Virus record (IMG/VR): IMGVR_UViG_3300034108_000811
Location: 1 to 64,000 of that record
Source: a virus
Strand: one strand, 5' to 3'
Length of the DNA: 64,000 nt
Shown: positions 2,806-56,200 of the stretch, piece after piece
Position numbering within the stretch: position 1 is the first letter of the stretch
Layout of the letters: each line of letters opens with the position of its first letter
Notes under the pieces: generated by a model
Databases searched by the model: none
What the model saw: the letters and a program-made list of their open reading frames with translations, nothing else
What the model was told of the DNA's origin: nothing
Translations under genes and position numbers: made by a program

Positions 2806-2823
2806 TTTACATTCTTAACTAAT

Positions 2824-2860: not shown

Positions 2861-2875
2861 TGTAAACACATATAT

Positions 2876-3880: not shown

Positions 3881-3975
3881 TGGAAAAACAACTATTTGAA
3901 ATTGACGGTTATAGAATTTGGGCTTATACATACGATGAAGCCTATCAAAACTATTTACAGATATTAAAATTCTAA
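3880..3975 (+). CDS. Small protein of unknown function (31 aa)
   Basis: ATG overlaps the primase stop (TAATG), and the frame runs 31 codons (MEKQLFEIDGYRIWAY...). It is acidic-aromatic with no recognised domain. The tight coupling to the primase and a spacing of one base to the next gene support it as a real small gene. Confidence 0.45.
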   Translation: MEKQLFEIDGYRIWAYTYDEAYQNYLQILKF

Positions 3976-3976
3976 C

Positions 3977-8893: not shown

Positions 8894-8901
8894 TCACAAA
8901 A

Positions 8902-8933
8902 GGGGGGAATACATACAATCCCCCCACATTTTT
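8902..8933 (+). terminator. Intrinsic terminator after rIIA
   Basis: A run of six G followed by A (8902-8908) pairs with T plus six C (8919-8925), and the sequence then runs into ACATTTTT. Strong GC stem with U-rich tail. Confidence 0.85.
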
Positions 8934-8952
8934 AACAATTAAATAATAAAAC

Positions 8953-14502: not shown

Positions 14503-14700
14503 AAACTTTATGGAGATTTAAAACTCTGAGAATTGCTGGAAACTCTGACCACATAATGGTGAAGACAATCAGCAGCCGAGCCTAGAAATAGGAAGGTTCA
14601 ACGACTAGTCGAAAGACGTACACTCAAGTGAGTGGAAGCACAGAGCCCCTGAAAAGGGTGATGATATAGTCTGAACAATATAGAAATATATTGATGAAAA

Positions 14701-33431: not shown

Positions 33432-35501
33432 TTACGTATATTGTAAATAAATATCACCATCAACACCACCAGAAGGAGCTGCTGTTCCAGATGTAATTAT
33501 CTTGTTAGCTCCTACACTATTGAAGCTTATTGTTCTTGCAACAGAACCATCAAATGTACTTGTAGGAGCATCTCCTGTTCCAGCAGAGCTGAATGTCAAT
33601 GGGTTAGTGGTTACACCACCACCTGCACCAGAAGTACCACTTGATCCTGAGGTTCCTGCTCCGCTAGTTCCACTTGTACCTGTTAAACCACTAGAGCCGC
33701 TAGTTCCTGCTGTTCCATTAACGCCACTAAGTCCTGATGTACCAGCAGTTCCTGATACACCACTAGTTCCAGTAGCTCCACTACTACCACTTGTACCGTT
33801 TATTCCAGATGTACCTGAGCTACCAACAGCACCATTTGCCCCACTAGTTCCACTTGAACCTGAAGCTCCAGAAGTACCAGATGTGCCAGAAGGAGTTGAT
33901 GTAATAATAAATAATACATCGTGGTTATTTGGAAAAGAAAATGTAGAGGTTCCTAATGTAACATTAAGTGTCCAATATGTAGTGAAGTCTGTTTTGGAGG
34001 TGACTGTCCAAGTTTGATATTGGAGGTGGTTATTTTTATCTTGAATTGTTATCAATGAACCATTTGGAATATTTGATAAGAATATGTCAAGGTTGTTACT
34101 AAGATCATCTGTATCACTTATATTTAACTGAGTGGCACTTGCTTGTGTGGCATTGTTCCAAATTATAAATCCAGATCCTGGGTTACCACTTGTAATAGTG
34201 GTTTTTGCTCTATAGTTAAAGAATGAGTTAGAAGACCCACTAGTTCCTGAACTACCTGTACTACCAGATGACCCACTACTACCAGACACTCCTGATGTTC
34301 CTGAAACTCCTGATGTACCATTTACACCAGATGTACCATTTACGCCACTTGTTCCATTGGCTCCATTAACACCTGACGTACCGTTTATTCCACTTGTACC
34401 ACTTACACCCCCTGAACCTGATGTTCCACTAGTTCCACCTCCACCTGATATACTCACTCTAGCTACACCACCACCAAGGTTGGTCACTGTAGCACCAACA
34501 AAGGATAATTGTGATACACTATTTACAGTGGTTGTACCATCTGTAGCTGATAGGGCTGTACCTGTACCAGAGCTTCCTGATGTTCCATTAGCTCCACTTG
34601 TGCCAGATGTACCAGCACCACCGCTAGTTCCATTAATACCACTAGTTCCACTTGTACCAGTGCCACCATTAACACCACTAGAGCCACTTGAGCCACTAAC
34701 ACCTGAACTACCTGATGTGCCACTAACACCACTTGTTCCGTTAGAACCATTGATTCCTGATGTACCATTAAGTCCACTAGTGCCATTAGCCCCAGATGTT
34801 CCAGAGCTTCCTGTAGCACCGCTTGTACCAGTAGCACCAGAAGTTCCTGAGCTACCACTAGTTCCGTTGACACCAGAAGTGCCATTAATTCCTGAGGTGC
34901 CTGATGTTCCACCACCACCTCCTCCAGTGCCTGATGTGCCTGAAGATCCACTAACACCACTTGAACCAGAAGTGCCAACACCAGATGTACCACTAGAGCC
35001 ATTTGCTCCTGCAGCCCCTGATGTACCACTAGATCCACTAGCTCCGCTAGAGCCTGTAGCACCAGATGTTCCACTTGTTCCTGTTCCTCCACTTGTTCCT
35101 GAACTACCATTTACGCCTGATGTTCCAGAAGAACCTGTAGAACCACTAGAGCCTGATGTGCCATTAGAACCTCCTGCTGCACCACTAGTACCAGAGCTAC
35201 CACTTGCTCCACTAGAGCCCGTTGCTCCAGAACTACCACTAGTACCTGATGTACCAGTTCCTCCTGTACCTCCACCGCCCCCAGCAGCAAATGTAGCTTC
35301 TATCTTTTCAATAACCACTTGAAGGTTATCATTATTGTTGATTTTTGTATAAACAAGATTGGGCCCTTCATAGAACACACATTTTGCATCTAATATGACA
35401 GGGCATGGATTTGCACCACAAACAGGGTTTGTGCTACAATGAGAAGGGGGAGCAGCACAACCTGCTGTCCCATATGGTAGTATAGATGGAAGTACGTTCA
35501 T
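33432..35501 (-). CDS. Collagen-like tail fibre protein (689 aa)
   Basis: A 689-residue protein. Residues 1-45 are Cys-rich (six Cys), and 45-75 form a short domain (CVFYEGPNLVYTKINNNDNLQVVIEKIEATF). Then come three blocks of Gly-X-Y triplets of the GTSG/SSG type, interrupted by two compact beta domains (about 315-355, LSFVGATVTNLGGGVARVSIS, and about 425-535, NSFFNYRAKTTITSG...). It ends with a tail-fibre-type domain (VTTNPLTFSSAGTGDAPTSTFDG...GDIYLQYT). Gly-X-Y runs form collagen-like triple helices in phage fibres, so this is likely a trimeric fibre. Confidence 0.8.
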   Translation of the reverse strand: MNVLPSILPYGTAGCAAPPSHCSTNPVCGANPCPVILDAKCVFYEGPNLVYTKINNNDNLQVVIEKIEATFAAGGGGGTGGTGTSGTSGSSGATGSSGASGSSGTSGAAGGSNGTSGSSGSTGSSGTSGVNGSSGTSGGTGTSGTSGATGSSGASGSSGTSGAAGANGSSGTSGVGTSGSSGVSGSSGTSGTGGGGGGTSGTSGINGTSGVNGTSGSSGTSGATGTSGATGSSGTSGANGTSGLNGTSGINGSNGTSGVSGTSGSSGVSGSSGSSGVNGGTGTSGTSGINGTSGGAGTSGTSGANGTSGSSGTGTALSATDGTTTVNSVSQLSFVGATVTNLGGGVARVSISGGGGTSGTSGSGGVSGTSGINGTSGVNGANGTSGVNGTSGVNGTSGVSGTSGVSGSSGSSGSTGSSGTSGSSNSFFNYRAKTTITSGNPGSGFIIWNNATQASATQLNISDTDDLSNNLDIFLSNIPNGSLITIQDKNNHLQYQTWTVTSKTDFTTYWTLNVTLGTSTFSFPNNHDVLFIITSTPSGTSGTSGASGSSGTSGANGAVGSSGTSGINGTSGSSGATGTSGVSGTAGTSGLSGVNGTAGTSGSSGLTGTSGTSGAGTSGSSGTSGAGGGVTTNPLTFSSAGTGDAPTSTFDGSVARTISFNSVGANKIITSGTAAPSGGVDGDIYLQYT
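33615..35275 (-). repeat. Coding repeat region, Gly-Thr-Ser triplets
   Basis: Three blocks (about 33615-33890, 34235-34440 and 34560-35275) consist of nine-base-period codon repeats encoding Gly-Thr-Ser-Gly, Gly-Ser-Ser-Gly, Gly-Val-Asn-Gly and variants. On the plus strand the same DNA reads as long open frames of Pro-rich sequence, which are artefacts of this composition. Expect length variation by slippage. Confidence 0.85.
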
Positions 35502-35966: not shown

Positions 35967-38900
35967 TCATCGTATTCCTGATTGAGATTGAACTTTTATA
36001 CCTAAATCTTTGGCTAAGTCTGGTAAAAACATAGGAATGTAGGTTTGTCCAACATTTGAAACAGGAAAGGTTTTCATTAGATATTTTATAGGATAGGCTT
36101 TCTTTTGCATTTCTTCATCACCAATAGCCATTCCATACATTTCTTTAGAGAAGTTGTTAATCAATTTTGTATAGTTGGTAATTAATGTCATGGAAGGAAA
36201 TATTCCTCTAGAAATCAATCCTTGAATACTTGTTGGGTCATAGAAATACATCAACTCATCTCTTAGTTTATCAGTGGCTCTGAGTAAAAACTTATATTGA
36301 TTTTTAACTACAGGGTCTTCATCATCATCTGGTTCATATGCTTTAAGCGCTAAGAACAAAGACATTAGTGTTAAAAGAAACACAGTGTCAACCATTTGAG
36401 CTTTGATATTAGATCTAACAAGTTCAATAAATTGAGCTTCATCCATTTTTAAATCTTTCCCTGTTTCTTCTTTGTATTTTTTAGACTTTTCTTCATATAG
36501 GGTTTTAATCTTATCTATCATTTTTTTATCGTTTCCAAAGATTGCACCTTTTAAACTACCAAGGGATTTAAGTGTATCTTTAGATAAATATGCAAAAATA
36601 GTCCTTGTTCTTCCCCACTCATAAGCATCTGAACCAGAGTTGTATTTTAAATCTCCAAATCTAACATCCACTTGACGAGGAATCCAACCCTTGAAAACCA
36701 TAAAAGATTTTCCATATATATTGAGATTGATAAGACGATTATCATCCTCAGATAGATTACCTAATGCATCTTTAGTTAAAGCTTGTACCTTTCTTCTTAT
36801 ATCTACAACACTTTCTGATTTTCTTTCTACCCCAGGTATAACAAGTTTACCATCTTCTATCTTGCTGAGTTTTAACACTCCTTTTTCCTCAATAAGTTTT
36901 TTTACGTCTTCTTCAAATTCCTCATCAAGCTTTTTTCTTTCTTCAACACCAACATTAAATCTATTAGCATACTTTTCTAAGTTTCTCACCTCTTCTCTAG
37001 CATTTTTAATAACACCATCTTCTACAATTGTGTTCTTAAGAAACGACCAAAAGTTAGTAACTTGTACAGCTACATCAGAATTTCTCATAAGACCCATTAT
37101 AAACTCTTGTACATTCTCCTGACTTAACTGATTGATAGACAGCTTCTTAGCAAGCTGTTTAGTTTGGTCTTCTGTTAAAGGAAGAAAATAATCTAGAGCA
37201 GCAATATACTTATCTCTATTTTCTCCACCCATCATTTTATTTTGGAAAATCCATGTACTAGAAGCTACAAAATCACTTTTTGTAAACCATTTTCCAGAAT
37301 TAATAATAGATTGAGCACTACCACCAAAAAGGTTTGATAGAGCAGAAAGAGGGTTTAGTCCAAGTGTGATTAGCTGAAAGTTATTGTTAATATTGTTTAT
37401 CACTTTGTTTAAACTTATTTGTCTTTCTGACATGTTTTCATCAAACAATTTAACTCCAAGCTTATCATTAATTTTCTTTCCCCAATCACCCATTTTACCA
37501 AGAAGAACATCAAAGGTTTCACTTTCTAGAAACTTCTGACCATAGAGAATAGCACTTGTCATATCTTCTATAATCTGGGTGTTTGTAGTGTTATCTCTTG
37601 TGTATTCTGTTTCGCCATTAGGTTTAACACGAGTTTTGCCCCACCAAGTGGTAGCTATTGCCTTTTTGTTTTTCTCTAAGTTGATGAGAGCTCTAGCTTG
37701 ATATTCAACATCACTAAGATATTTGAATCTTAGAGCCATTTCATTATATAAAGCCATTGTACGGAAAAGATCTACACTCACTTCTCCTTCAATCTCTGAT
37801 GTAAAATACTTAGGAATCTTTTGAACAGGTCTACCTGTTTTGAAGTCTAATTTACCCATTCCAACATCTCCCTGGTCAACGCTAATGCTTCTTAAGAATT
37901 GCTCTCCTAATGATATTTTTCCTCCAATAAACAGTTTTTCAGAAAGTTCTTTTCTCACCCAAGGAAGAAACACCCTAGTTTCAGCTTTTGATAAATAGCC
38001 AAACTCAGCATATTCTTCATTCTTTTTCTTTATATAGTTATAGAACTCTAGAGCTGGAGCATTTTCAGGTTTATTTAGTTCTTTCCATTCTGGAGATTCC
38101 CATTTCTTATTAGGAAACTTTTTAATGTCTTTGTACAATAACCATCCTACAGAGTCAATATAACTAATGTTATATAAATCATTCACCTTATTCTTTTCAA
38201 ACACTATCTTTGCACGAATTTTAGTGTTAATAGGTTCATTTTCAGGAGTTTCTGCAAGAAGAATATTCTCAGGCTTGTTTTCTATTCTTAAATGTTCTTT
38301 TTCTATCTGTTCTTTTAGATAGGCAGCATAAGCCTCTTTATCAATATTTTCTGAAATCCATTTAATATCCTTTTCATCTATCTTCTTTTTTAATGTAGAA
38401 TAAAATTCAGGAGAATATTCATCAATAAGTTCATTCTTATCAGACAAACTCTCTGTATATCTATCCTCAATCTTCTGCAAAGCTTCTTTATATCCTTCAG
38501 CAGAAAGATTGTTCTTGTTTTTTTCTAGTTCTGCTATATCATTTTTACGTCTTTCTTCTCCTTGTTTCTTATAAACCTCTGGCTTTTTTCTAATTATATC
38601 AAAGTAGTTACTAAGTTTCAATCCCTTAGATCTAGCCCATTTATCATATCTCTCCTTTATTCCAGATAGTATAGAAGTTTCATCTGTTGCATCTGCTTTT
38701 GCATAGAACAGAGCTCTGTTAATTTTCTTATATAAAGCTTCTACAGACTTAATTTGCATTACAGATGTACTTGAAAACCATTTACCTAGTCCTCTAATTG
38801 ATCTTTCTGCATTTTTAACTCCTGTAACTCTTTCTTTACCAGCAACAATATCGTTTGTAAAATTTTCATCCACTTCTTCTAATTCTGATAATAGCATACG

Positions 38901-41255
38901 AGCCTCATCTACAGAATCTCTCAATTCTTGTTTAAGTGCTTTGTCTTCTTCAGAAAGCTCACCACTTCCTATAAATAAGGATTTTAATTCAATATCAAGT
39001 TCTGTATAAAGAGTTAAGGAATAAATAGCGTTTTCAACATCACTAGAAAAGTCATTAATCACTTTTTCCCATTCTAATCCTGAGAAAGATGTTGGGTCTT
39101 TATCTTTAAATTTGCTATTATATTGCTCAATAATAAATCTTACATTTTTGTTATATATACCAGCTTGTTCTATAAGAGGTGCTATATTCTGTCTCATTTG
39201 AAGCTGCCTGATAGCAAAGAATAAAGCATTCAATTGTTCTGCCTTGCTTTGTTTTTCAGAAGGAAGAGCCTTCTTTTCAGATATTCCTTTATATATATTG
39301 TTAAGTTTTTCAAGAAGTTTATCTATCTTTTTGTTTCCAGTGGGCTCCCTTTCAATTCCTACAGGAAGTAAATAAGGGTCTAAAATGTTCTTAGTTTCAA
39401 CATCTCCAATAGACACTCCTAATAGTTGAGGATATATTTTGTTTAGAGCGTCTCCTTTAGAATAAGTGGCTATGATTGGAATCATTCTTGCTTGTTCAAT
39501 GTTTTCAGGCTTCACTCCATACATTCTTGAAAGAATGTTTATGTATGCATCCATTTGTTGTTGCCAAGCATTAATCTTATACCAAGGAATATCACTAGTT
39601 TGTTGATACTCATTTAAGCCCATGAATTTCCAGTCAAGAACTGAAATTTGTCCTGTTGGACGTATGGCAATAAAATCCACTGTACCTGCTAATCCATTGG
39701 CTGTCTTGCTATTATAAATAATTGTTTCAGAAAGAAATCTAGTTTTTCCTCCACCAAGATTGTTATTAAAATATAGAAGGCGTTGATAAAGATTTTCTTT
39801 TAATGTTTCATACATTGTTCTATCATCAGGATCAATCTGAGAAATATAGGTTGAATCATCTAGAGGAACATCTCTTAAATATCCATCTTCATCTACAAAT
39901 AGTTTAAACACCTCTTCAAAATCAGCATGTCCAGCTGTACCCTTTTCTTTCTTTAAATCATTTACAGCTTTGGTCCATTCACTATCTGCTAAAGCTTTGT
40001 CTGAAAAAACCTGGTCATACCAACTCTTAACAAGATCTGTAACCCTGGGAATCTTTCTTCCAGTTGCTTTGTCAAAATAACCATCATCTCCTCTTTTATC
40101 AATAGTAAACTTAGAAGCTTTTAACAGGTCGTACAATCTATCTTGTTCAGATTTTTGAAGAAAATATTCTCCTTCTTCTTCTCTAATATCATCAGCTGTA
40201 CCAAATTTCTTTCCAGATATAATATCAAATATAGCTTGGTCAAATCCTGATTTGGCAAACAATGATGTAATATAATCCAATATTGTTTTCCACCAGCTCT
40301 GAACCTTTGCTAATAGCTCAGGTTTTTCTGTAAGACCCTCAGTCTTATTTATAATCTTCTCTACTAATAGTTTTGCAATAGCTTCTTCTTTAAGCTTTAC
40401 AACATTAGGTTTTCCATCAATTTGATATTTTGGGTCATTGCCATATTGCTCAAACACCTCTGACTTAATTCTGTAATCATTAATCTCACTCATGAGCTTT
40501 TTATACAGAACAGGATTAGTTTGTTTTATAATAGCCACTACAAAGTGCATTGTTTCTTCAGGAAGAGCTGTATCTTCTTTTCCTTCAACCACTTGTACAA
40601 TTCCTTCCATCACCTTTGCTATACCGTCGGAATCTAATTTCTTACCATTAACTACAATTTGTTTAACTCCTTCATAGTTAACTCCCATATTCTTTAACAA
40701 ATCTTTAACTAAAGCAATCACTTTAGGTGATGCTGTAGAAGATGGCATTGTTTCTTTTTGTTCAAAAAGCTGACCAGGAGTGACAGTGGCTTTGTTTGGA
40801 GTTATTTCTACAACCTTTACTAATGGATTTTTAGTAGATTTTATAGTGAATAACGTGGGGTGTTTAGCTGCCAAATCTATCATCAATCTTAGATTGGGTT
40901 TAAACACTGTTTCTATTTGCTCTTGGTTATACACCAAGCTTCCTGTGCTAGTCCATCCTTTTGTAATAAAAACTGCATCTTTATGTTGGCTTATCACTCC
41001 CTTCAAAAGAGAAAGAATGGCTTCTTTTGATAAATTGGGGTTTTGCTCAAGAGCAAAGTTTACAACATTAAACATGTCTTTTTTATAAAACATCATCCAT
41101 GTTTTAAACTCTTTTACAGAAGGATAGTAGAAATCATCAGATAGTCCCTTTACGTCAGAGGAATACTTTCTGACAAAAGTTTCAGCTAGTTTCTCTCCAT
41201 ATACACTGGAAAGCTTTTTGAATTCAGGATTGCTTTTATTTATGCAAACACTCAT
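35967..41255 (-). CDS. Giant virion-type protein with PD-(D/E)XK nuclease (1762 aa)
   Basis: A 1762-residue protein. Residues 225-325 contain LPEETMHFVVAII (E233-E234...H237) and LKEEAIAKLLVEKI, a metallopeptidase-like pattern in which the first His of HExxH is Glu. Residues about 430-600 form a PD-(D/E)XK nuclease: KGTAGHADFEEVF, LAGTVDFIAI with D527, SVLDWKFMG with D541 and K543, and WQQQMDAYINIL. The middle is charged helical. The C-terminus has a hydrophobic segment (TVFLLTLMSLFLAL, about 1615-1630) and a conserved end. It overlaps the 5027-residue gene by four bases. Packaging in the virion is inferred. Confidence 0.75.
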   Translation of the reverse strand: MSVCINKSNPEFKKLSSVYGEKLAETFVRKYSSDVKGLSDDFYYPSVKEFKTWMMFYKKDMFNVVNFALEQNPNLSKEAILSLLKGVISQHKDAVFITKGWTSTGSLVYNQEQIETVFKPNLRLMIDLAAKHPTLFTIKSTKNPLVKVVEITPNKATVTPGQLFEQKETMPSSTASPKVIALVKDLLKNMGVNYEGVKQIVVNGKKLDSDGIAKVMEGIVQVVEGKEDTALPEETMHFVVAIIKQTNPVLYKKLMSEINDYRIKSEVFEQYGNDPKYQIDGKPNVVKLKEEAIAKLLVEKIINKTEGLTEKPELLAKVQSWWKTILDYITSLFAKSGFDQAIFDIISGKKFGTADDIREEEGEYFLQKSEQDRLYDLLKASKFTIDKRGDDGYFDKATGRKIPRVTDLVKSWYDQVFSDKALADSEWTKAVNDLKKEKGTAGHADFEEVFKLFVDEDGYLRDVPLDDSTYISQIDPDDRTMYETLKENLYQRLLYFNNNLGGGKTRFLSETIIYNSKTANGLAGTVDFIAIRPTGQISVLDWKFMGLNEYQQTSDIPWYKINAWQQQMDAYINILSRMYGVKPENIEQARMIPIIATYSKGDALNKIYPQLLGVSIGDVETKNILDPYLLPVGIEREPTGNKKIDKLLEKLNNIYKGISEKKALPSEKQSKAEQLNALFFAIRQLQMRQNIAPLIEQAGIYNKNVRFIIEQYNSKFKDKDPTSFSGLEWEKVINDFSSDVENAIYSLTLYTELDIELKSLFIGSGELSEEDKALKQELRDSVDEARMLLSELEEVDENFTNDIVAGKERVTGVKNAERSIRGLGKWFSSTSVMQIKSVEALYKKINRALFYAKADATDETSILSGIKERYDKWARSKGLKLSNYFDIIRKKPEVYKKQGEERRKNDIAELEKNKNNLSAEGYKEALQKIEDRYTESLSDKNELIDEYSPEFYSTLKKKIDEKDIKWISENIDKEAYAAYLKEQIEKEHLRIENKPENILLAETPENEPINTKIRAKIVFEKNKVNDLYNISYIDSVGWLLYKDIKKFPNKKWESPEWKELNKPENAPALEFYNYIKKKNEEYAEFGYLSKAETRVFLPWVRKELSEKLFIGGKISLGEQFLRSISVDQGDVGMGKLDFKTGRPVQKIPKYFTSEIEGEVSVDLFRTMALYNEMALRFKYLSDVEYQARALINLEKNKKAIATTWWGKTRVKPNGETEYTRDNTTNTQIIEDMTSAILYGQKFLESETFDVLLGKMGDWGKKINDKLGVKLFDENMSERQISLNKVINNINNNFQLITLGLNPLSALSNLFGGSAQSIINSGKWFTKSDFVASSTWIFQNKMMGGENRDKYIAALDYFLPLTEDQTKQLAKKLSINQLSQENVQEFIMGLMRNSDVAVQVTNFWSFLKNTIVEDGVIKNAREEVRNLEKYANRFNVGVEERKKLDEEFEEDVKKLIEEKGVLKLSKIEDGKLVIPGVERKSESVVDIRRKVQALTKDALGNLSEDDNRLINLNIYGKSFMVFKGWIPRQVDVRFGDLKYNSGSDAYEWGRTRTIFAYLSKDTLKSLGSLKGAIFGNDKKMIDKIKTLYEEKSKKYKEETGKDLKMDEAQFIELVRSNIKAQMVDTVFLLTLMSLFLALKAYEPDDDEDPVVKNQYKFLLRATDKLRDELMYFYDPTSIQGLISRGIFPSMTLITNYTKLINNFSKEMYGMAIGDEEMQKKAYPIKYLMKTFPVSNVGQTYIPMFLPDLAKDLGIKVQSQSGIR

Positions 41256-44200
41256 AATCTACATTTTAACATTTCTATAAACTCTGATTCTTTTATATCA
41301 AATGGCACCTCTAACAGTTCATTTATAATATCTTCCATGCTTCCAAGCTTATCTCTATCTTCCTGTGATAAGGAGTTATAAAACTCACCAACAGTGATTG
41401 TTGGTGATGTGGCAGGAGCTCCTTGTTGAGAAGCTGGAAGAGGCGTGGAAGTTTCTGGTTGAGCAATATTGTTAACTTTATTGCTAATTTCAGAAGGCGT
41501 GATTTTAACATTTGCTGATTGAGGAAGAAGTATCACCTCTTTTGAACTTCTTGTAATAGCTGTATAATACCATCTTGCACTATTCCATTCAGGAGCTACA
41601 TAGTTTTGATTTACAAACACCTTTTCCCATTGACTTCCTTGAGACTTATGACCTGTAACAGCATATCCATAAGTACCTATTATTACAGAAGGACTTAATT
41701 TTACGCCTTTTATAGTTCTTATTGCCAATCCAGATGATTGTAATCCATCATATAATGAAGGATTGGTCTCTCTGATTGATTTTAGAATTTCAGCATGATA
41801 CATACTTGGTCTATCAAGTGTAGAGAAAAAGAATAAAATTTCTGTTCTACCTATCTCTTTTGTTTTAACTTCATATGCTTTCATAGGATAGTTTTTAACA
41901 GTTCCATTCTTATCAGTGATTGAAATTGTTGTAGACAAATCTGCCCTTTCACTACCTATAGAGTCTACAGTGAATGTTTCACCATTAGCAAAGTTTTCAC
42001 TGTTTGCTACAGACATAACTTTCTCAGAATCAATAAGAATGGCTTTCTCTCCATCACCAAACTTTGCCATTCTAGCAACCTGGTTCATTATCATTCTTTC
42101 ATTATTTGTAGCTACAATTCCTATAACATCTTCTCCATCAGCAATAGCTTTTCTAAAGCTTGATATAAACTCTCCCTTTCCTGATGAAAGTGTAAAGTCT
42201 TCCATTGAAACAGATGGTATATATGCTTTTTTATCTTCTCTAGTTAATGTAGCCATCTTTAAAACATTACTGTCTAAAGACTGTCTTTTCACCTCTGTAA
42301 GTTCTGTGCTACCAATCAATTTAGTTCCATAGTTTTCTTGAAACTTGCTAGACCCTTTTAGAGATGAGAATAATCCAGAGTCTTCTCCTATTTGTTCAAG
42401 TTGGAAACCATCTCCTAAGAAAATCACTATATTGTTTCTTCCCTTTGCAGCATTAATTAAGTCAGACATCAGCTCTTTAGAAATCATAGAAGACTCATCA
42501 ATAATAATTAAGCTGTTTTCCAAAAGGGCTTTTGGAATCCATTCTCCTGTTTGAGGGTCAGGTTCTCCATAAATAGATCTATGAATTGTAGAAGTGTTTG
42601 CTTTGGCATCGCTTTCTTTGAGTTTTTCATTTAATACAACAACTGCTTTATTGGTAGGAGCCATGATTAAAACTGGTCTACCAGACATATTAGAATAATT
42701 AACCATGTTTTCTACAAGAGTGGTTTTACCTGTTCCTGCATATCCAGCAAGTAGATAGAAGCTTTGTGTAGAGTCATCAATTAATTTCTGTATATCCAAA
42801 AGAGCTTTAGTTTGTCCTGTTGTATATGATAGAGGATTTTTTCTAGTCTCAAATATAGTGGGTTTTTCATTACCAGCAACAGTTTGTCTACTATTCATAT
42901 CTACTGTTGGAGCTATTGAAGCACTCCAAATACCAGAAGCATCTTCACGTATATATCCTTTAGAAGTAAGATAATTAGCCATATCTACTTCACCTATATT
43001 ATACCCACTAGTATTATCTAGGTGAGCTTTAGTGTCCATAATAAAACGAGCACCAGTAGCAATAGCTTTATCAATTAGTTTATAAGGACCTTGTAAAACT
43101 CCATCTTTTACATTTATAAAACGATTACCACGATTTCCATTAGATGATACATAAATTAAATCATCAGATGTGTAGTTACCTGTATTAGCCAATCCCACCT
43201 GAGTATAAGCATTCTCCATACGTTGGGTAGTAGAGTCATTACCTCCACCTGTACCAATAAATTGTGTAGCTTGACGAATCTTAAATAGCTCTTTAGGAAG
43301 ATGTTTTTTGGCTGATTCTTTTACATAGCCAGGAGCTGTTACAATATCTTCTACAACTTTTGATGGTGCTTGTTCTGTTGGTTTTGTTGAAACTTCTACT
43401 AACTTATCAAAGTTTTCGTTAAACACAATGTTAGAAGGAATTGTTCCAGCAGAACTGAACATATTTGCCATTTCTTGTCCTGTATATCCATTCAGATTTT
43501 TTTCAGAATAATCAGATACTAAAAACTTCTTGTCTGGATTTTGTTTGGCATATTCATATAAGCCTTTTATCTCATTGATAATTTCTTGAGGAGTGCTAGA
43601 CTTTTCTACGTCATAGTATTTTTTAGTTACAATACCATAAGATTTTCCCTGAAGTCCTCTAGGTTGTCCTTGTATTGCTCCAAATTTTTCTCTAGCTAAC
43701 TTAGCAGATCCTGCTCCATGTGTAGGAGCACCTCCTTTAGAACTTCCTATGTTTGAACCAAATACAAATATTTCATTAGGCGCTAGGCTAACCACTCTAC
43801 CTTTATATGTTTTTCTTTCTGAATTAGCTTTTTCACCAGTGGATGGTTGTGTAGATTCTTTAGGTGGCTGTAATAATGGAGGCTGTTTTCCAAGATAGTA
43901 TTCAACTATACTACTATCAGGAATCTCAGTTTCCACTTTCACTGTTCCATTATCTATTACAGACTTAGTAAATACTTCTTTGTGCTCCACAGTGTAAGGA
44001 TTATCTCCATACAAATTTACTAATTTATATACATATATTGTGTCTCCTTTATCATTTTTATATGTTAAAGGTTCGTCATTTACCATCACTTTCTTATATC
44101 CATAGACATCATTAAGACTTGGGTCTCCCTTTTGCTTCATTTCAGCAAAGCTTAACTTAGTGATTGTCAAGCCCGTCTTCATATCTATCATCTCTCCAGT

Positions 44201-47200
44201 GGTTCTATCTGTCACTACACGAGGCACCTTTACATACATATATGGAACATCTCCACTATTATATTTCTCGTTAAGTTCCAATATCATTCTACTTGTACTT
44301 TTCATACCAAGCATTTCTATATTTGGAAATAAAGAAGAATAGTATTGGAAGATGTCAGCATAGAATTCACCATACATATCAACTTGATATGTAGCAGGGT
44401 CTTCAGAAGCGAAGAAGAACTTAGGCATCACCTTTGGAACAACATCATCATCTTTGAAAGCATTTCTATGAAAACTTCCTTGTATAAATGCTTCCAATCC
44501 ATTAGTGGAGTTTAAACCACGAATTACAGGAGAAATAAGAGTTTGCAAGTCTTCAACAGGAATAACGTTTCTTATTGAGCTCTGAGAGAAATAAGTTCCT
44601 TGTAATATGGATAGCTTAACCAAATCATTGTAAAACTCCTTAAGTTCATTATTACTATCTCTGAGTTCTCTCATCATACCAGTGTTCATATTCTCAGCTT
44701 CTCCACCCCTATCATTAATAATAAGCTTTACGTTTTTACCACCCAACATTCTATCTGAAGAAATGGGAATAAGTCTCTTTAGAACATCCACCTCTGGGTA
44801 TTTGACTGCCAACTCTCCTAGTCTACTTGCTACACTAGTCTTTGGATCCACCATAAGTCTCTCCACTTCAGAACCAATACTAGTTTTTGTTAAAATCAGA
44901 TAGTCTATAAAAGAAGCCTTTATCTTATTAGCTATCTTTTCAAAATCATCATTTGACAAGTATTCATCCTCAGCATAAGCTTTCATCAGTGTATTCTCTG
45001 TAATAAATCTGTATATATCCTGTTCAGTTTTAAATACTGTGCCCATAGCTTGTCTGAAGGAATTTAACAAATAAGCTTGCTTACCTATGAAAGTTTCTTC
45101 TAATATGTTATCTACACAACATATAATATTCTGAGTTCTGGCTTTCTCTGTTAAAAACTGCTTTCTTGTTAAAGCTTCTCCGCTTCTAAACTTAGTGGTG
45201 TCATAGTTAATGGCTTGTGTAAACTTAAAGTTTTGTTCAGCCATCTTTGCATATTTCAAAAACTCTGTCAGAATTCGTTGTTGCTCAATGAGTTGTGAAT
45301 TAGAAAGCTTTCCATTCTTGTAATAAGCCTCAATGTTTTCCTCAAGAGTGCTGACATTAAAAGGAACATCTACTAGTTCACTATCAGGAGTGTAAGAAAA
45401 TCTATCTCGTATTGCCTGAATGTTTCTTGAATTGAAGAGGCTTCTGATATTCTTATTATCAAGCATTTTTACATACTCTACAATAATAGGTTGGTTCAAG
45501 AAGTTTATGCCAGATTGCCCAGCACCTATTCTTTCTAAGAACATAGCAGGTCCTACTAATAACTGACTTCTGATAACCTTTGACAAATATGGGTCTTTTA
45601 CAACGTCCACTGTACCAGAAGCATATCCAGATAATCTCTTAGAAATAAACATATCAGTGCCATCAGCTGTCTTTCTTCCAGAAAGAGAAATGAATTTCTC
45701 ATTATTTTTCTCATAGCTATTATGCGGAAGATAGACCACTCCATTACCAAGAAGATTTCTTTCTATAGGTTTAAGAAGGCTAAATCTTCTTGGGTCAATA
45801 TATGTAGGAACTTTCTGAGTTATAGAAACACCAGTGATGTTTACAGCCACAATACCAATCCAGTTTTTAGCCATTTCATACAAGTGACGCATTTCAGTCA
45901 TGTATGTTCTGTCCAAAATAGATAGTTCACTTTTTGTTTCACCTCTTAACTCAATGATTCTTTGTGACACTTTTTTCAATCCAGCATCATCTACAGGAGT
46001 GATTAATCTTTCAAAAGCTTCAGGAAGAGTTAACAATTCTTCCATAGATTCAAAATATTCATTCTCTATAGAACGCTTATACATCTCTTTCACCCACTTG
46101 TTCTTTATAACAGCCTGAGCCTGAGCATCTGTAAGTTTCTTAAGCTCTGATGTAATCATTTCATTAAAATCTGCTGGGTCCATTCCTTCAAGCATAATAT
46201 CAAGAATTTCTCCATATTTATCCACTAGTTCTTTTGGATCATCTAAACCATAACTAAGAATATCAGCAGCCTCTCTTAACTCATTCTTTTTGAATATCTT
46301 GTTCTTTAAAATACTATCAAACTCTTTAGAAAAGAATTCTTTTGTTTCTGCTTCTGAGCCAAGATATTTAACAAGCTTTATATTTCCATTTCTATCTATG
46401 TATGTAGCTTTTAGATACATATTCAACTTGTCAATATCAAAGTCAGAACCAGCTTTTGTAGTGATTTCAGCAGGGACAATAATGGTGTCTCCCATATAGC
46501 TTGGTAAAAACCCTTTCACTCTAAACACTTCCATAGAGCTTAATGACTGAGTGGGAATACGGAAAGCTACACCTGAAAGAATTTTCTTACCCTCAGGAGA
46601 ATTGTTCAAATAGTCAAGAAGCGCAGCTTCATTTTTAAACTTACCACCCATCTTCACCTTGAACCAATGAGGAAGCATCACCTCACAATAAGGAGCATCT
46701 TTTGTGTAAAACTTTAATGTATTGTCAGTGAGCGCTACGCTTTTCTTACTTTTATCATCAAGAGCTTCATACTCTTCTTTACTAATATTTACAAACTTTT
46801 TATTTCCTTGCTCATCTTTAATTTGACGAACTAGTTGTCTGGAAGAACCAAGTGGTGCAAATCCTGTAACAGGAGCTTGAACATGAGGTCTACCATTCAC
46901 CTTCACTGAAATTATAGACTTGTGAATAAACGAATATACAATATTCTTAATTTGACCATAAGAAGGAGATGCTTCAAGAGGAAATATAAATTCTCCATTA
47001 TCATCCACTTGAATACTGTCTTTAATATTGTCAGAAAGTTCTCTTCTAAACATTTCATAAGCAAGAGCTTCAGAAATTGCGTTTCCATCAGAAAGAACAA
47101 ATCCATCTCCTAAGTCTTCAATGCCAAGTTTATTCAAAAGTTCATTATACGCATTCTCATGCATCATGTCCAAAATCTCTTTATTTCTTCTGTAAGCTCT

Positions 47201-50200
47201 TAACGCTTTGTCACTAACAGGAATACCATTTTCAAACAAGTCTATAGAAACAAGTTTTGTTGGTTGTGTACCTCTAATCTGTTGCTTATCAGCTTGATAT
47301 GAAGTTTCCACCTGTACACTATATGCTGACCAGGGCACTCTTACATTATTATTAAACCCATCTGTATTAAACTCTCCATTACCATTATAAAGAGAATAAG
47401 TTTCATCAGTTCCAAGCTTTCTACCAGATTCTACAATACCATATCCTTTTTTAGAGTTAAACATTTTTATATAGAAATCCTCAAGTTGTGTCCCTTCAAC
47501 TAAACTAAAGTAGATGGGCATTTGTGAAAACTTATCAAGAACAAGTTCTATATGATTCATTCCATCCTTACTACCTCTTACAATAGGCTTTAATATATTA
47601 AGCTTATGTTCAGGAGATGGCTTTGATAGAGTTTTCTTATCAATAGCTTTTAATTTACCATTCTCAGGATAGGTGTAGATTCCTTTTTCAGCAAATTTAC
47701 TTCTTGTATAAGCCATTTGCCATTGATGGAAAGCTTCAGCAGCATCATCCCATTGTCCACTCTTTAGCTTAATTTCTTTATAAGTGTTGTCCATTAACCA
47801 AGAAGCAGCATCAGCTACGTTAACCTCACCATAAGCTGAAGGTAGAAGATTTGCTAATCTACTAGCAATCACGTCATCTTTTATAGTGATGGTGTCTGTA
47901 TGAGATTTGTGTAAATGGTAGCCAGGAGTGTCTTCTGTTAAAGCAACATCCCCTACATTGTTGTATTTATTATTGAGAAAATTGTTGTATTCATCAGAAT
48001 TAAAAATAGACCTAGCTGGGGATAAGAAGCTTTTGATACGCTTTAGTTCATCAAGAATAATTTCACCATTCTTATCTGAAATCTTAAATTGATAGGGATC
48101 ACCAAATAAAATCTTATGAAACTCTGTATTGGCAATAGTGTAATTTATGGTGACAAATGAAAGAATGTTATCAATTCCTTTTTCTGTCATACGACTTTTG
48201 TCAAACTTTCTAGATGTAGCAAAGTCACTATCCAACATTGGATAGCTATATAAATCTTTTTCTCTAGTTATAATTTGACCAGATTCTACAAGAATATTCT
48301 TAAGTTTTTCAGTGTTTCTGTCTATATAAGTTTTTACAGCTTCGTTAATAGTAGGTGCATTTTCTTTAACATAAGTCATTATAGTTTCTACACTATCACC
48401 CTTATCAATCTTACTTTCTATTTCATTAATCGTTTTAGCTGGTAGAATTTCTCTAAACCATCTAAGTTGTTTTGCTTTCTTCTCACCTATATTAGCAAGA
48501 TGTTTTCTATTCTTCCAGTCTGAAGCTAATGCTATTTCATCCTCTAGATAGCCTGTAAATACATCATAAACTTGTGACCACGCTCTTCCTGCAGAAACAT
48601 CATCAAAAGAAATATTGTTTCCAAGAGTCATTAACCAAGGAGTGGAACCATCTCCCTGGTTTAATACAAAGTATCTACCATTTAGATTTTGGTTAATTTC
48701 CTGAGCATATCTATATCCACGACTCATCTTATATCCACTAAGACCTTTTCCAGCATCTCTATCTCTACCTCCTTGAATATATCCCACCTTTAGTTCTCTT
48801 ACAGATCTACCCTCTTCGTTATAGAACATTCCTCCGCTCTTTAACACTAAGCTATTTTTAGAGAATACATCGTTAAGTTCTGGCCTTTGTTGTTTTAGCT
48901 CATCTATACTATTAGATTCATTAAATTGATTTTCAAACAGGGAAGGTGCATTATTTTCTGAATATGACCCCACTTGTGTACCATCAACTCCTATATAAGT
49001 GTTTGAAGTTTCATAACTAGAGGCTTTTGCATAAAGCTCAGAGAGAATAGAAACTGGACCACTCACTTGAAGTGTTTTACTCTTTACACTATACACTTCT
49101 CTATTAGCACCAAAGTAGCTTTTCAAAGAGCTAACAGCATCATCAAACTTTTGCTTCTCACTCTTATCATTCATCTTCTTAGGAACATCACTAAGTTTTT
49201 GCCATATATCTATAGGAAAATTAATACCTATAGCAGATAGGTAGTCAATTTGTTGTTGTACATTTCTAATAGGAAGACTATTAAGAACAGACGTGTTTAC
49301 AATATATGACCCTATTTGCTTACCACTTTTATCGTTAGCTGCAGAATATTTTATAATAGAAGATGGATCAGAAGCCATAAGCTTCATGTTCTCAATCCAT
49401 GCTCTTTCCACTTCTTTCTTAGCACTTTGGAAGTTAGCAGATTGAGTGTATACATTTGTTCCAGAGATGTATTCTATTAATGCATCTGGTTTTTGTTTTG
49501 TAAAGGTTTGCCAGAAGTTTATAAAAAGTCTCCAATCATTTTCATCAAATTGGTCAAACTTCATAGTGGCTATCTTGTCACCACTTAATGTAGAAATATC
49601 TGCACCAAGTCTCTTCAGAAGAGATATATAGTTTACATCATCTTTGGCAAGCTCAAATGTTTTGTTTACAGCTTCTTGTACACTTGTTGTATTGCTCAGC
49701 TTTTCAAGTATTTGACCAAATGCCTTGCTAAAGTTGATAAGTCTATACCCATTTACAGAGGACAGTTCAGGCGAGAGTTTACCACCCTTACCTATAATTT
49801 GTTCTATAGGTTCATTTTTTGACCTAATCAATGTAGCAAGAACAAATCTAATAGCTGCTGGGGAAGTTTGTTTCCAATCTATTTTAAATGGATTACCACC
49901 ATATTCTTTAGAATTATATTCCTCAGTGTTAATATCTACAGCATCGTCAGTGATGGTTATGCCTAATGTTGTAAGTTTTTCTTTTGTTTTCTGAATCAAT
50001 GTGTTAAGTGATTCTTCTGAAAGACGATCTTCTGGTTTTACACTCTCGTAGTATTTTTTCTTTATATTAGTGAAAATCTCTACACCTGTAATCTTTTCAG
50101 GATTAAATATAAGACGTTTGGATTTTCCAAATAAATAAACAGCAACTCTTGCAGTCATGTCTTCTACAAAGTCACGAGTTTGCACTTCTGTTAATCCTTC

Positions 50201-53200
50201 TACAGCTCTATATTCAGCAGCTTTGTTATATACACTAGGGAATAGAAATTCTTTTTTAAACTTCCCAGCATCTATATCTTTAAACAATTGTTCCTTTAGA
50301 GAAGGTTTAGTTCCAAAACTCTTAAAGAAATCCACGATGGCTTTGAAGAATCTACGTATACGTTCAGACAAAGACCTTGCAGGAAGTTTTCCCACTCTAT
50401 AATCAGCAAAGTCATCCATTATTCTTTCTTTGATTTGCTGTCTTGTAGCTGTAGCGTATTGAAGTTTTTTACCAGAAAGTCTGTCTATAAAGGTGCCACC
50501 CTTAGCTCTTTCATCAGCTATAATAGCATCTTGCTCCTCATTAGAAAGCATACCATTCCATATAGCTTCTCCAAGCTCATGGTATTCAGTTCCTTTAAGT
50601 CCTCCTCTTACAAACTTAACAATGCCCTTTTCAAAAACACCCCATGCTTTTCTTGTTCTATTAATCTTAATTACATTCTCCAGTATTTCATAAGGAATAT
50701 TAGGAGCCACTTCAGCTACATAGTTTTTGAATATAGCTAAGTCCTCTTCTGTAATTCTGTTATCTTCATCTAGTTCTGATATTTCTCTATAATCATCATC
50801 TGTAGGAGGAGCTGAAAAGTTTCCACCAGGAGGAGTGATTGGAGGTTTTTTATCTTCGGGTTTACCTTCTACTCCAAGTGCTCTCTGATTAATAATGTCT
50901 TCATATTCACCTACAGTTTTTGCACCAGACTCTTCATAAGAAAGGAGACTATGCTGAAACTCATGCTCAATTACAAATTTCTCCCATGCGTCATATGTTG
51001 AAAATGCATCTGCGGAAAGAGCTGTAGCAGAAGAACCATCTTTCTGCTTACGAGGACTAGTCCAAGCTTTTTCATCAAACTTCTTTTTAAGAAGCTCTCT
51101 ATTAATAGTAATTTTATTCTCAGTGCGATTGTATTGAGCAGCTCCAGGTTCTCCTGTAGCTGTTGTAATAGAAGAACTATCTATCACTTGTATACCCTTA
51201 TAGGTGTAACTAGGTTTAGCTCCTTCTAAAGCAGCTAGTTCTGCATCATATTTAGCATTGATTTTATCAATAAGCTCTTCATAAGTAATAGCATTAATTT
51301 GACTAACTTTATTTGAGAAAGTATTACTAGTTTCTCCTTCTTTTACATCAAAAAGAACAACATATGGTTCTGGTGTACCATTATCTTTTAGTAACTCAAT
51401 ATTTCTATCATTAATTACTTTAGCTTCTTTTAACAACTCCTGTCTTCTTCTTTCTATATCAGCTATTGCAGCAGAAACTACAGGAGCTGTTGGTGTTGGA
51501 GCTACAGGAGCAGCAGGCTGTTCATTGAGAGTTTTTAACTTACTGCTTATTATTATTTGTGCAAGTGCATTTATTATTTGTTCATCTGAAAGACGAGAAA
51601 CAAACTCTGGATTTTTATCTTTATACTCTTCTACTAATATTTCTTTCAAACTATTGAATGTATCAATAGCAAGTTGTTCTCCTTTATTCTTTCTTTCAAT
51701 TAAATCCTTTGCACCTTCACTAACTGCTTCTACATTAAAGAATCCTTTTTCCCCAGGAACTGCTTTAAATCTCACCTTTCCAAAAGGAGGTTTTAATTCT
51801 ATGATGTTTTCTTTTTTATTAACAAAAAAGTTACCAACCATTGGTTCTTCTTTAGAACCAGGAGGAGGTGTTTGCTTAGGAGCTTCTTTTGGAACAGTTT
51901 GTACAGGAAGATTTATACCATTTATAACAGCATATTTCTGTTTAAATGAGAGTTTGCCATCTGAAGGTTCAGCTATATCAGTGAATAAAGGCAATTCATT
52001 AACAGAACGAGATTTACCATCTGGATATTTGTTACTTAATAAGAAAGATTGGTAATTAGTCCATTGTCTTTCTTCAATCACCACCTTACCATCTGCATCT
52101 TTTGTTGTATATAGCTCATAAAACTTATCAAAGAACTTACCATCTAATGTCTTCTTGTTGATGCTGAAATAAGTGTTCTGAAATTTATTTACTATTTCAT
52201 CTCTCTTGTCAGCAATTTCTGAAAGACCATATTTAATACCACCAATCTCAAGCTGCATTGTATCAGTGTTGAGGTTGATTTGGTTAGTTGAGGGGCTAGT
52301 TCTGTTACTCCAGAATAGAACATTTGATAGATAGTCAGAATATCTAGTGTTTATTTCAGGAGTTTTTCCAGCAGCTTGTGCAGCTATTAGCTCGTTAGCC
52401 ATAGCGTTAATAATCTCATATAGATTTGCAGCCTGCTGTTTAGAGAACTTACTAGACCTTATAAATGTTAAAGTGTCACCATATTGGAAAAATGGTCTAC
52501 CCTTAGGTACATTTATACTTTCTCCTTGGTGAGAAATAGTTCCTGTAGATGAGATTTGAATAATACCTTTAGTCTTAGAAATTAGGTCTGAAGGAATTAA
52601 GACATCACTTACGTAATTTTTATCTGACTCCATAACCTGTTTACCATCCTTATCAAGTACAGGATTACCATTTTCATCCAACTTAGGAACAAGAGGTCTT
52701 GAAGGAATGCCTCTAGATATTTTGAATTCAAATGCCTCATACTTATTAGGATCAGCTTGCCAAAAGTCTTCTCTATATTTCTTCCATGCTTTAGAATAAG
52801 CTTCTAATGTGACTTGCTGTTCTCCTCTATATCTTGGTTGACCCTTAGAATCTGTTGTTTTTATTGTAGGCATTGTTTGGAAAATAATCTTTCCAAGAGA
52901 AGGAGTGTCTACCCCCACCTTACCTATTCTTTCTCCATTTTGATCTACATAGTGTAAAGACCCATCTGTAGCATCTTGTTCTACAAACACTGATGCCATC
53001 CAACCATATTCTACATTTGTAGCCTTGTTACCATCATATTCAATGTCTTCCACCTTTGTAGAAGCGTCTACATTGTAAGACATTTGAACAATACCATTAA
53101 GCTTAAGCGCTTCAATGTTTTTATGATTGATGACAATCATTTTCATTCTACCTCTGTTAGGATAGAACTTAGCATTATTTAGAAAATATCTTGCACGAAT

Positions 53201-56200
53201 AACGTGTGGTGAAGAACTAATAGGAGCTTCCCATCCATTCTTCTCACCTCCTTCAGATTCAGTGACAGTAGATATGTAAAAAATAGGAGCATCTTTTAGA
53301 GCTGGTTCTTCATATCCACCTGTTTCAAATGACGTTGGAATGTCACCAGAGTTACCAAATATAGTGGATAGTTGTTGGTCAAGAGATGACTTGTGTCTAC
53401 CCATTTTTTCTTCAACACTTTCCACGAGCTCATAACCAGAAAGCTTTCTTGGGTCAACGTTGGTTATATTACCAGCATTATCTTCTATTTTAAGTGTACC
53501 ATCAGCATTGATGTCTAACACCTTCACTTTGTTATAGTCCTGAAGACTGTCATTGAATTCCTCTGCAGCCTCTTGAGCAGTATCTTTGTTAGAAAAGAAC
53601 AAACTATCTCCATATGGAGTGATTAGTTCATATCTATCGTCAGCAATTTTATTAATCTTAGCTGGGGAAAGAGCTTCAATTTGATATTCTCTACCTACAC
53701 TTATTGGTTCTTTCTTCCCTTCTTTATTTGTAATTTCTACACTAGCAACAACAGGAGCTTCTTGTTCTTCAGGAATAGACTGAGATGCCACTTGTTCGGC
53801 CTGTATAAAATATTCTTTAAACCCTTTCTTGTCTGAAAGAGCCTCTATAGCATTAGCTGCTTTATCTCTTCTAATTCTATCTCTATTAACATCTATACCA
53901 ATATTGTACATATCGTTAAAAGAATCTCCACTAATTATATTGTCACTAATAGATTTTCTTCCGCCAATTTCAAAATTGATAATTTTTCCAAGTCCTTTGC
54001 TGTCTAAATTCTTGGCCGCAATAGCTAAGTTAATCTTCTCAGACATTGTTCTAAGAGCCTTTATTCTATCTCTTATTTGTTTCTTATCCTGAGGAGAGGT
54101 GAATTCTGTTATTGTAGCTCCAAGTGCAGCTGCTTCTAATTCATATTCATCTCTAAGTGTTTCAGCCCCATCTTTTCTTAAGATGTTACTTACCAGTTCA
54201 GCAGATAGCATTGGATTGATATTCATTTTTAAATGAGCATCATGTTTTTGCAATTTATCTTCAGAAATATCTTTTACATTATGATAGTAGGCAATGTCTG
54301 TTTTATATTGTTCAAATATTTTATAGTTTTCTCTTTCTATTTCCTCTTGTTCATTTGTAGGATTGGCATAATAATTAAAAGGATTTTTAAATAATAAGTT
54401 AACAGAATCTGTAATTTCTTTAATCTTCTCAGCTTTTTCAATCATTGCATCTACATACTCACTCACTGTACCTTTGTTCTCCGCACTAAAGTTCATCCCA
54501 AAGGTTTTTTCAAACTCTTCTTTATCTAAACCTTTCAACATTTTTAGTTGCTCAATTGTAACATCATGCATACCTGAAGGAATACGAGATGTTACAAAAT
54601 TAAAGAACATGTCTTCTTTTAGATTATTAAACTTATAAACATCTCCTTTAGATACAGCATCTTTCATTTCTGAAGCAATGCCCATGCTATTCAATGTGCT
54701 ATCATATTTTTGACCAAAACTACCTGTTATGGGAGAATTGTTTAATATATTAATTGCAGATTGAGTTCTTTTATCTTTAGAATTGTTTTTTCTAGAATCA
54801 ATTCTTCCTAATATACCTCCAGAAACAATGGCGCTAATTGCACCAACAATCATATTTTCTACTCCTTCCTGTTTTCCAAATTGTTCAGAAAGACCAAATC
54901 CAGTTGATTTAATTGCTTCATTTAATGTATTCCAGTTTTCATTATTTCTAGGAATAGATAAATTTTTATATCTTCTTGTATAATAATCGTATGTACCACG
55001 TTCTGCAGCAAACTGCCCACCTTCTTCATACACACCTTCAGCAAGAGCGTTTCCTATAACGGGCTTAACCTTCTCCCAAGCTTTATCTAAAAGTTTTTCA
55101 GAAACCTTACTTTCAAAAACATCTATAGACCCTTTCTTTAAACCTATTTCACCAACACCTTCTGAAAATACACCACTCAAAAGTTTACCATCTTTAGCAA
55201 TCATTGATTTAAAAAGATTGCCAAACTGTATATTATTAGATAGTAGTAATAATCCCATGTTTATACCAAACCTAGCATTCATACCATTAGTTGCTAAATC
55301 TTCTATTTGTTCAGCATCTTTACCAGTGGGGTCACTATTAAAATGTTCTAGTTTATATTGTCTTGTAAGTTCTTCCTTAATTTGTCTATATCCATCTCTA
55401 GATTCTACAGCACTCTCCGTAGCGGTGCTTCCATACATAGCAAGTCCAAATCTAGCACCATTTATTATTTTTGCAGACTCAGCAGCATATGCTAAATTCT
55501 TTATATTTAGTATGGTTTGTTCTGATTTATTTAATGCTCTAGCTAAGTCTAAAACTTTATCTACTTTATTTGTTCCTGCAAAAACTTTATTTAAATACAG
55601 AGAAGCTCTTCCTATTTGACTAGCTAACAATGGTATTTCTCCAATACCTCCTGTTATTGCACCAACAGCAAGGTCTTGCACAAATGCTCCTCCAATTGCT
55701 CCAGCAGTGAAACCTAAGTTCTTTAAAACCATGTTTCCCCAGAAGTTTGCTGATCCTGTAGCGAAAGGAACCATAGCCAAATATGGATGCTCCTTCTCAT
55801 AATCTGTCATATAATTAGGAAAAGCATCTTCCATGTTTCTAAGAAACATGTCTGTATCTGATTTATATCCATCTTTTCCAGAAAGTTCTGATACAGAGCC
55901 TTTCTTTATTGCAGATATTGCATCAGGTATTGTTGAAAATTGCATAGCAAATGTTCCAACAGCTGTAGCTGCAAATTTAACAGCAGCATTGCCCCATTGA
56001 GATAGAGCACTTTGTTGAAGACCATATATGTTTTCAAGATTTCTGTCTCTTAAATATAAATCATATCTTTTATTCTCATCAAGTTCGCTACCAGGAACCA
56101 TCTGCATAGGAGAAGCAAATGTAGGTGCACTAGAAGGCATCTTTGAAAAGCTGGAAAGTTGGTCAATAGTAAGACCTGTTTTACTATCTCCTTTAGTAGT

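Follow-up and report, generated by a model that had tools for sequence, protein, structure and literature searches.

The RNA polymerases of crAss-like phages are already known in kind: a DxDxD motif and two barrels within a single chain have been published for them (PMC7886860), and the active site as such is textbook for this group. In phage phi14:2 the DNA-dependent RNA polymerase is gp66 (Protein Data Bank (PDB) entry 6VR4), a protein of 2,180 amino acids (aa), and the phage record annotates gp65, gp66 and gp67 from tandem mass spectrometry (MS/MS); in crAss001, according to PMC10172136, gp47, gp49 and gp50 are cargo proteins detected in virions by mass spectrometry. Here we describe a gene of this type in the IMG/VR virus record IMGVR_UViG_3300034108_000811, of which the whole stretch analysed (‘the window’) comprises bases 1-64000 of 69,659 bp. 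A single open reading frame (ORF) on the minus strand (56335..41252), unbroken by any stop, encodes a 5,027-aa protein in which the polymerase follows a gp47-like part in the same chain and carries interchangeable modules at two sites. It is these modules, on a polymerase of known kind, that are new here, their functions being predicted from the families to which they belong.

Setting this protein beside gp66, we find a homologous polymerase region, the same DFDID motif, two lysines and a single chain, but the two are only 23% identical and gp66 has no gp47-like region in its chain. Compared with crAss001, the N-terminus of the window protein resembles gp47, its polymerase gp50 and the product of the next gene gp49, whereas gp47 and gp50 are there separate genes on opposite strands and here form one fused gene. 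The polymerase and its active site are placed as follows:

41252..56335, minus strand: giant ORF, 5,027 aa, with a gp47-like N-terminus, site A, a two-barrel-type RNA polymerase and a C-terminal site B; 22 distinct relatives have the same backbone
43946..48268, minus strand: RNA polymerase region, aa 2690-4130 (6VR4 matches; tblastn)
47531..47533, minus strand: K2935, first conserved lysine (gp66 K1027), invariant in 29/29 polymerases
47417..47419, minus strand: K2973, second conserved lysine (gp66 K1065), invariant in 29/29
46430..46444, minus strand: DFDID, catalytic aspartate triad (gp66 D1361, D1363 and D1365), invariant in 29/29

An initial annotation of this DNA had proposed an RNA polymerase from the DFDID motif and two candidate lysines upstream of it, naming phi14:2 gp66 as the protein to compare. 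The residues concerned (K2935, K2973, D3298, D3300 and D3302) and the peptides around them all lie where it had put them, within the one minus-strand ORF: DKFSQMPI at aa 2934-2941 (47513-47536), SGRKLG at aa 2970-2975 (47411-47428), GVAFRIPTQSLSSMEVFRV at aa 3255-3273 (46517-46573), DTIIVPAE at aa 3283-3290 (46466-46489) and GSDFDIDKLN at aa 3296-3305 (46421-46450), with a distance of 325 residues from K2973 to D3298, in agreement with the spacing that it gave. Across all window frames of at least 100 aa (24,082 residues) the pattern D.D.D occurs three times and GSDFDxD once; D.D.D is thus weak evidence by itself, and the weight rests on homology.

That homology is apparent from both sequence and fold, and the relationship to gp66 that had been suggested is borne out. 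Searched with phmmer against PDB sequences, aa 2301-3900 gave one significant match, 6VR4 (1.6e-20), and with tblastn the same segment matched 134 phage records, which among the matches listed were nearly all crAss-like, with phi14:2 gp66 first; the core searched against phages as DNA returned a single weak hit, so protein searches were needed. An AlphaFold2 model of aa 2740-3880 (predicted local distance difference test score, pLDDT, 66.9; predicted template-modelling score, pTM, 0.61) found 6VR4 as its sole Foldseek hit at E<=0.001 (7.2e-15), and structural comparison gave Z 21.0 over 600 residues with a root mean square deviation of 4.2, the next row standing at Z 4.0. By alignment, both candidate lysines fall on conserved lysines of gp66 and the three aspartates on its triad; these five residues are invariant in 22/22 close relatives, as in all of the 29 aligned polymerases, which include gp66, crAss001 gp50, cr112_1 and four distant IMG/VR polymerases. 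DFDID is likewise the form of the motif in gp66. Together, alignment and model support our reading of the region as a homologue of gp66 with the same fold and intact catalytic residues, and the motif as the active site of the known crAss-like virion RNA polymerase type.

What the initial annotation overlooked is the larger point, namely the fusion and its interchangeable modules. Two IMG/VR scans, with duplicates set aside, provided 22 different relatives in which this giant gene is present (L numbers below; the 5' end is missing in L013 and the 3' end in L032). In alignments with the window protein, the relatives have aa 1-1500 and 1890-4150 in common, several of the 22 having diverged much further within the first ~800 residues; unshared are ~1600-1860 (‘site A’) and everything past ~4150 (‘site B’). 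The length of site B, counted in 22 homologues with the window protein included and L032 left out, is bimodal, at 48-88 aa in 10 and 201-1189 aa in 12, against a backbone (aa 1900-4100) that spans only 2158 to 2277 aa. The last ~75 residues of the window protein recur in L002, which has none of its site B modules; the modules therefore lie between backbone and tail. In order from the N-terminus, the remaining parts of the protein are:

53807..56101, minus strand: gp47-like part, aa 79-843 (tblastn and blastp)
54797..54865, minus strand: aa 491-513, the sole hydrophobic stretch exceeding the Kyte-Doolittle threshold used (hydropathy)
51422..51472, minus strand: upstream border of the variable cassette, aa 1622-1638 (ADIERRRQELL type)
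51215..51262, minus strand: downstream border linker INAKYDAELAALEGAK, aa 1692-1707 (codon identity; DNA pattern)
50858..51220, minus strand: site A module, aa 1706-1826, metallopeptidase-like (HEFQH motif and relatives)
50558..50587, minus strand: EYHELGEAIW, aa 1917-1926, a conserved backbone HExx(E/H) motif (homologue alignment)
43391..43813, minus strand: site B module 1, aa 4175-4315, macro-like (NCBIfam A1S_2505 N-terminal family, phrog_2072)
42911..43363, minus strand: site B module 2, a domain of ~150 aa, aa 4325-4475 (L037 match)
41456..42868, minus strand: site B module 3, aa 4490-4960, a superfamily 1B (SF1B) helicase, RecD2/Dda-like (phrog_325; motifs)
41255..41476, minus strand: C-terminal tail common to L002, aa 4954-5027 (40% over 80 aa, 1.8e-11)

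The first of the site B modules matches NCBIfam NF049995 at 3.4e-25, above the cut-off of that family, and its model (residues 1-133) resembles TARG1 (Z 10.4) and the DarG macrodomains (Z 9.0); the best Foldseek match (E 0.006) is also a macrodomain and, whilst the model has a pLDDT of 55.6 overall, this part scores higher, so that the module is predicted to have the macro fold. It was in this first domain alone that the model, the second one predicted here, folded well. Module 2, for which neither a profile match nor a confident model was obtained, is ‘SLOG-like’ by eye only. Module 3 matches phrog_325 at 9.5e-59 and has the Walker A, DESSM, GDGFQL and YTAITR motifs; against the RecD2 equivalog TIGR01448 it scores 113 bits (1e-32), below the cut-off of 500, hence our description of it as an SF1B helicase of the RecD2/Dda type and not as RecD2 itself. 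The same helicase occurs in L027 and L034 (51% identity by BLAST). At site A, the name ‘metallopeptidase-like’ comes from the motif only (HEFQH, aa 1791-1795, 50951-50965); HExxH modules are found at this site in the window protein, L007 and L019, that of L019 being 79% identical over 123 aa by BLAST. At the position of the backbone EYHELGEAIW motif, 4/23 homologues have HEIGH or HEAFH.

A Pfam scan of 10 other site B segments (L027 being represented by the first 600 of its 1189 aa) recognised NADAR in three (L018, L026 and L027), an AlkB-type 2OG-FeII_Oxy_2 domain in three (L024, L027 and L028) and DUF7831 in one (L031), with no match above cut-off in the site B segments of L002, L007, L017 and L030. 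Pfam recognised hardly any of the cassettes found at site A or with the linker; the names ‘ART-like’ and ‘ASCH-like’ for some of them are presumptive, given by eye, and ‘DnaJ-like’ is based on an HPD motif together with sub-threshold Pfam hits (0.053 and 0.018). PADLOC, run on six segments, returned only PDC-M42C for one NADAR segment and a weak PDC-S57 hit.

These modules move among crAss-like polymerases that are only distantly related, and between them and other large proteins of the ejected type. The HExxH family that occupies site A of the window protein is found at site B of L030 and L031 (38-39%; 5e-19 and 2e-20 by BLAST). A search with aa 4134-4500 returned three further loci, in which the modules are C-terminal in other, far more divergent crAss-like polymerases: module 2 of L037 is 84% identical over 149 aa, against 24% in the polymerase, and retains 80% DNA identity over 435 bp with no other DNA similarity between the two genes, and the macro-like module is shared with L038 (57%), which additionally has a helicase at its C-terminus, and with L039 (52%). 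The DnaJ-like cassette is 77-79% identical in L057, which is a gp47-like protein, in L077 and in the polymerases L086 and L013 (79% between L057 and L086), the proteins being otherwise dissimilar.

Such modules also occur in named Crassvirales of the genera Kolpuevirus, Kehishuvirus and Pamirivirus (frurule, cr126_1, cr112_1 and cr116_1), whose polymerase genes, like that of the window, carry either a macro-like module (45-47% identity; frurule, cr112_1 and cr116_1) or NADAR (cr126_1; 1.3e-14). Their modules differ in place, lying at the N-terminus in cr112_1 and cr126_1, in the middle in cr116_1 and near the C-terminus in frurule. In cr131_1 and cr272_1, NADAR-like matches fall in frames that also match the polymerase. 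The named-phage records were taken from the top of the search listings and are no census; the same listings contain many copies of the modules in genes of other phages. In literature listings and passages of text, figures and supplements aside (among them Figure 3 of PMC7886860, with the ‘recognized conserved domains’ of this gene block), we found no publication that places macro, NADAR or AlkB domains within the polymerases of crAss-like phages. As a separate observation, the polymerase gene of cr126_1 (L099:8854-16062, NC_055884.1) is annotated as a ‘DUF1768 domain-containing protein’, after its NADAR module.

At site A, the cassettes often lie between ADIE(K/R)RRQEEL and INAKYDAELAALE, and this border may be where they are traded. 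Seven relatives that have the linker were retrieved through their protein sequence rather than their DNA; of the 96 identical residues in their linkers, 84 are encoded by the codon that the window uses, whereas the backbone figure is 47-55%. For L018 and L025, that codon identity is reached nowhere in the backbone windows (0/1541 and 0/1546). An exact DNA pattern of the border is present in 53 stretches of viral contigs, the linker frame being open in every one (53/53) over 326-4,896 codons. Outside the linker, 37 of these ORFs are similar to reference crAss-like polymerases or giant ejected-type proteins and five more have such similarity elsewhere on the stretch, leaving 11/53 without; because the 53 were selected by DNA, their codon identity is not used as evidence. 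Named phages searched with one linker cassette gave no match. In several of the giants, namely in the site A region of L028, L046 and L066, we also see a second short shared module (GEETNIGKEITAVAPFNKGTITGKI...) after the border linker.

The linker data fit exchange at the linker without proving it. The conserved border could instead be kept by selection on protein or RNA and be no recombination site, an alternative that we consider possible but doubtful. In its favour, backbone windows do match the codon identity of the linker in 5/7 relatives, in three of them more than a handful of times (L013 128/1260, L032 34/1317 and L028 30/1296), and the site B modules, by reading, have no such linker. 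The codon figures for the linker as a whole, and for L018 and L025 in particular, speak against it, as does the recurrence of the same 33-bp border around different cassettes in non-orthologous giant proteins.

Taking the locus as a whole, we regard as very probable a reading in which a gp66-type virion polymerase, fused behind a gp47-like part and furnished with two sites for exchangeable modules, is packaged and ejected, and its modules act early. By analogy with phi14:2 and crAss001, the polymerase would be packed in the capsid, ejected together with the DNA and then transcribe the first genes. In this lineage it is joined to the gp47-like part and has one module site inside the chain and a second at its C-terminus; modules are gained, lost and swapped, probably through recombination and helped in part by the conserved border linker. 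To judge from their domain families, the modules probably work during the earliest minutes of infection, opposing ADP-ribose-based defences of the host or else acting on the DNA as it enters.

Several observations weigh against this reading. Neither gp66 nor crAss001 gp50 has, by reading, a macro, helicase or similar C-terminal module. The proposed structural alignment to gp66 held as regards the overall match to 6VR4 but only in part at the active site, since the confidence of the model is middling in general and low around K2935, K2973 and just before DFDID; that the aspartates would face the lysines is taken from gp66. The unloaded homologues (10/22) mean that cargo at site B is dispensable, and three of the 12 loaded tails (L002, L007 and L017) have no recognised domain. 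Counted on the backbone tree, the helicase needs three changes, NADAR three, AlkB two and the metallopeptidase five; the figure for the helicase equals that of shuffled labels (mean 2.9, with a value as low in 500/500 shuffles), and all that the tree says of its carriers is that they are not one clade; moreover, with the window protein on a long branch, the change counts are rough. Finally, the phage is known here as a sequence alone.

Some of these points favour a plainer view, that of a common virion polymerase of the gp66 type with additional domains that are neutral or help it to be packaged or to fold, and that take no part in anti-defence. Such a view could draw on the unloaded homologues, on the unrecognised tails and most linker cassettes, in which no domain is recognised either, and on the fact that large size is usual in these proteins, up to ~6000 aa (in a review, PMC10136315). 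We nevertheless hold it to be unlikely: the modules that are recognised belong to enzyme families (NADAR, 2-oxoglutarate-Fe(II) oxygenase, macro-like and SF1B helicase), the helicase has kept its motifs, and two modules remain 79-84% identical across far more divergent backbones.

A more specific, and for us tentative, version of the exchangeable-module reading is that the injected polymerase and other giant ejected proteins are exchangeable carriers, with tethered modules that would take off or sense ADP-ribose (macro and NADAR), repair DNA damage (AlkB-like) or unwind DNA (SF1B helicase). The polymerase, as the first enzyme to read the incoming genome, would thereby clear or bypass host lesions (e.g. 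of the DarT type) on its own template, and the modules would be traded between lineages partly via the ~45-bp linker, much as polymorphic toxin systems trade tips. The ADP-ribose marks that DarT toxins put on DNA are removed by macro (DarG) and NADAR domains, with the caution that a tested phage NADAR removed the guanosine mark in vitro and gave cells no protection from DarT1 (both from PMC11125620).

It would also be conceivable for the polymerase to be made during infection and remain unpackaged, as for the PhiKZ non-virion RNA polymerase (nvRNAP) or YonO, a two-barrel polymerase not in itself implying packaging and the protein being known here through its gene only. We think this improbable. 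The PhiKZ nvRNAP matches our model far less well than 6VR4 does (Z 3.2 against 21.0), and a gp47 homologue forms part of the same chain, with a gp49-like gene coming next, both being counterparts of virion proteins in phi14:2 and crAss001. Specifically, aa 79-843 are similar to crAss001 gp47, a protein associated with the virion RNA polymerase, and to a protein of 1,552 aa from the Leptolyngbya phage Lbo-JY46 (tblastn; blastp 25% over 798 aa, 6.5e-52). The gene downstream is weakly similar to gp49:

35967..41255, minus strand: next gene, 1,762 aa, its start codon overlapping the stop of the giant ORF, with a nuclease-like stretch (crAss001 gp49 3e-4; phrog exonuclease 0.0025)

That the giant ORF is an assembly chimera, with helicase and macro modules belonging to other genes, we consider extremely improbable in spite of the record being an unfinished metagenomic contig, since the frame is single and free of stops, helicase fusions at the same site occur in two other contigs (L027 and L034), the modules match the backbone in guanine-cytosine content (0.336-0.344 at site B and 0.332-0.348 in the backbone) and the final tail is common to a relative without the modules.

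Two bodies of work provide a wider frame for a packaged polymerase that carries such modules. In Iyer et al. 2017 (PMC5512222), the N4-like virion RNA polymerases have effector domains fused to them, metallopeptidase and ADP-ribosyltransferase included, and are counted among the ‘polyvalent proteins’; the window protein likewise unites effector-like domains of several unrelated kinds in a single large chain and would, by analogy, also be a giant ejected polymerase with effector domains, but the N4-like enzymes have an unrelated, T7-like fold and are said there to occur only in N4-like phages. The word ‘Cellulophaga’ is absent from that text. For the Macro, NADAR and SLOG proteins of phages, Iyer et al. 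2022 (PMC9503650) proposed a role early in infection, against host NAD/ADP-ribose immunity. They represent the same kinds of ADP-ribose-processing domain as are found here, and the modules of the window protein might similarly counter host ADP-ribose defences; outside RNA virus polyproteins, however, the proteins of that study are typically standalone, whereas here the domains lie inside a gene for a virion-type polymerase. The string ‘crass’ does not occur in the text of that study. Should our reading be correct, a phage group of great abundance would have an effector carrier in its virion polymerase, the second case beside the unrelated N4, and the modules would constitute a concrete list of candidates for packaged counter-defence. 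It would also help to account for the large size of crAss-like polymerase genes and the difficulty of annotating them, and would make a role of these giant proteins beyond transcription testable in cultured phages such as frurule.

As to the phage itself, no match to TerL was found on this record, which is a fragment; the TerL of relative L102 is 40% identical to that of Lbo-JY46 and then 30-32% to those of epsilon crAss-like phages, and on these results we call the phage a crAss-like relative, short of a formal assignment to Crassvirales. The major capsid protein of crAss001 matched 2/10 records, neither being this one (G000, a fragment) nor its close relatives. A pattern search of 84,980 prokaryote genomes found no relatives, and so gave no prophage or host clue. 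By BLAST, Lbo-JY46 has no match to the polymerase core, a result that carries no weight, the positive control being absent. Lbo-JY46 (L008, PP438436.1), with a cyanobacterium as recorded host, comes closest among named phages in two respects, its TerL (40%) and its similarity to the N-terminal region of the giant protein.

Elsewhere in the window, two adjacent genes (6581-10320) match the T4 RIIA and RIIB lysis-inhibitor families (phrog_612 5e-54 and phrog_609 8e-15), followed by a short ribonucleotide reductase gene (13524-14504; phrog_367 9e-74) and a RecA/UvsX-like recombinase (16329-17360; Pfam RecA 3.9e-86). A glycosyltransferase family 9-like gene lies at 28803-29918 (Pfam 7.7e-07, above cut-off), and 33432-35501 encodes a 689-aa protein made up mostly of collagen-like GTSG/GSSG repeats. 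At L012:3414-7490 (record 65413-69489), a 1,358-aa protein has several Thr/Ser-rich (TTTTST) linkers that separate its other segments.

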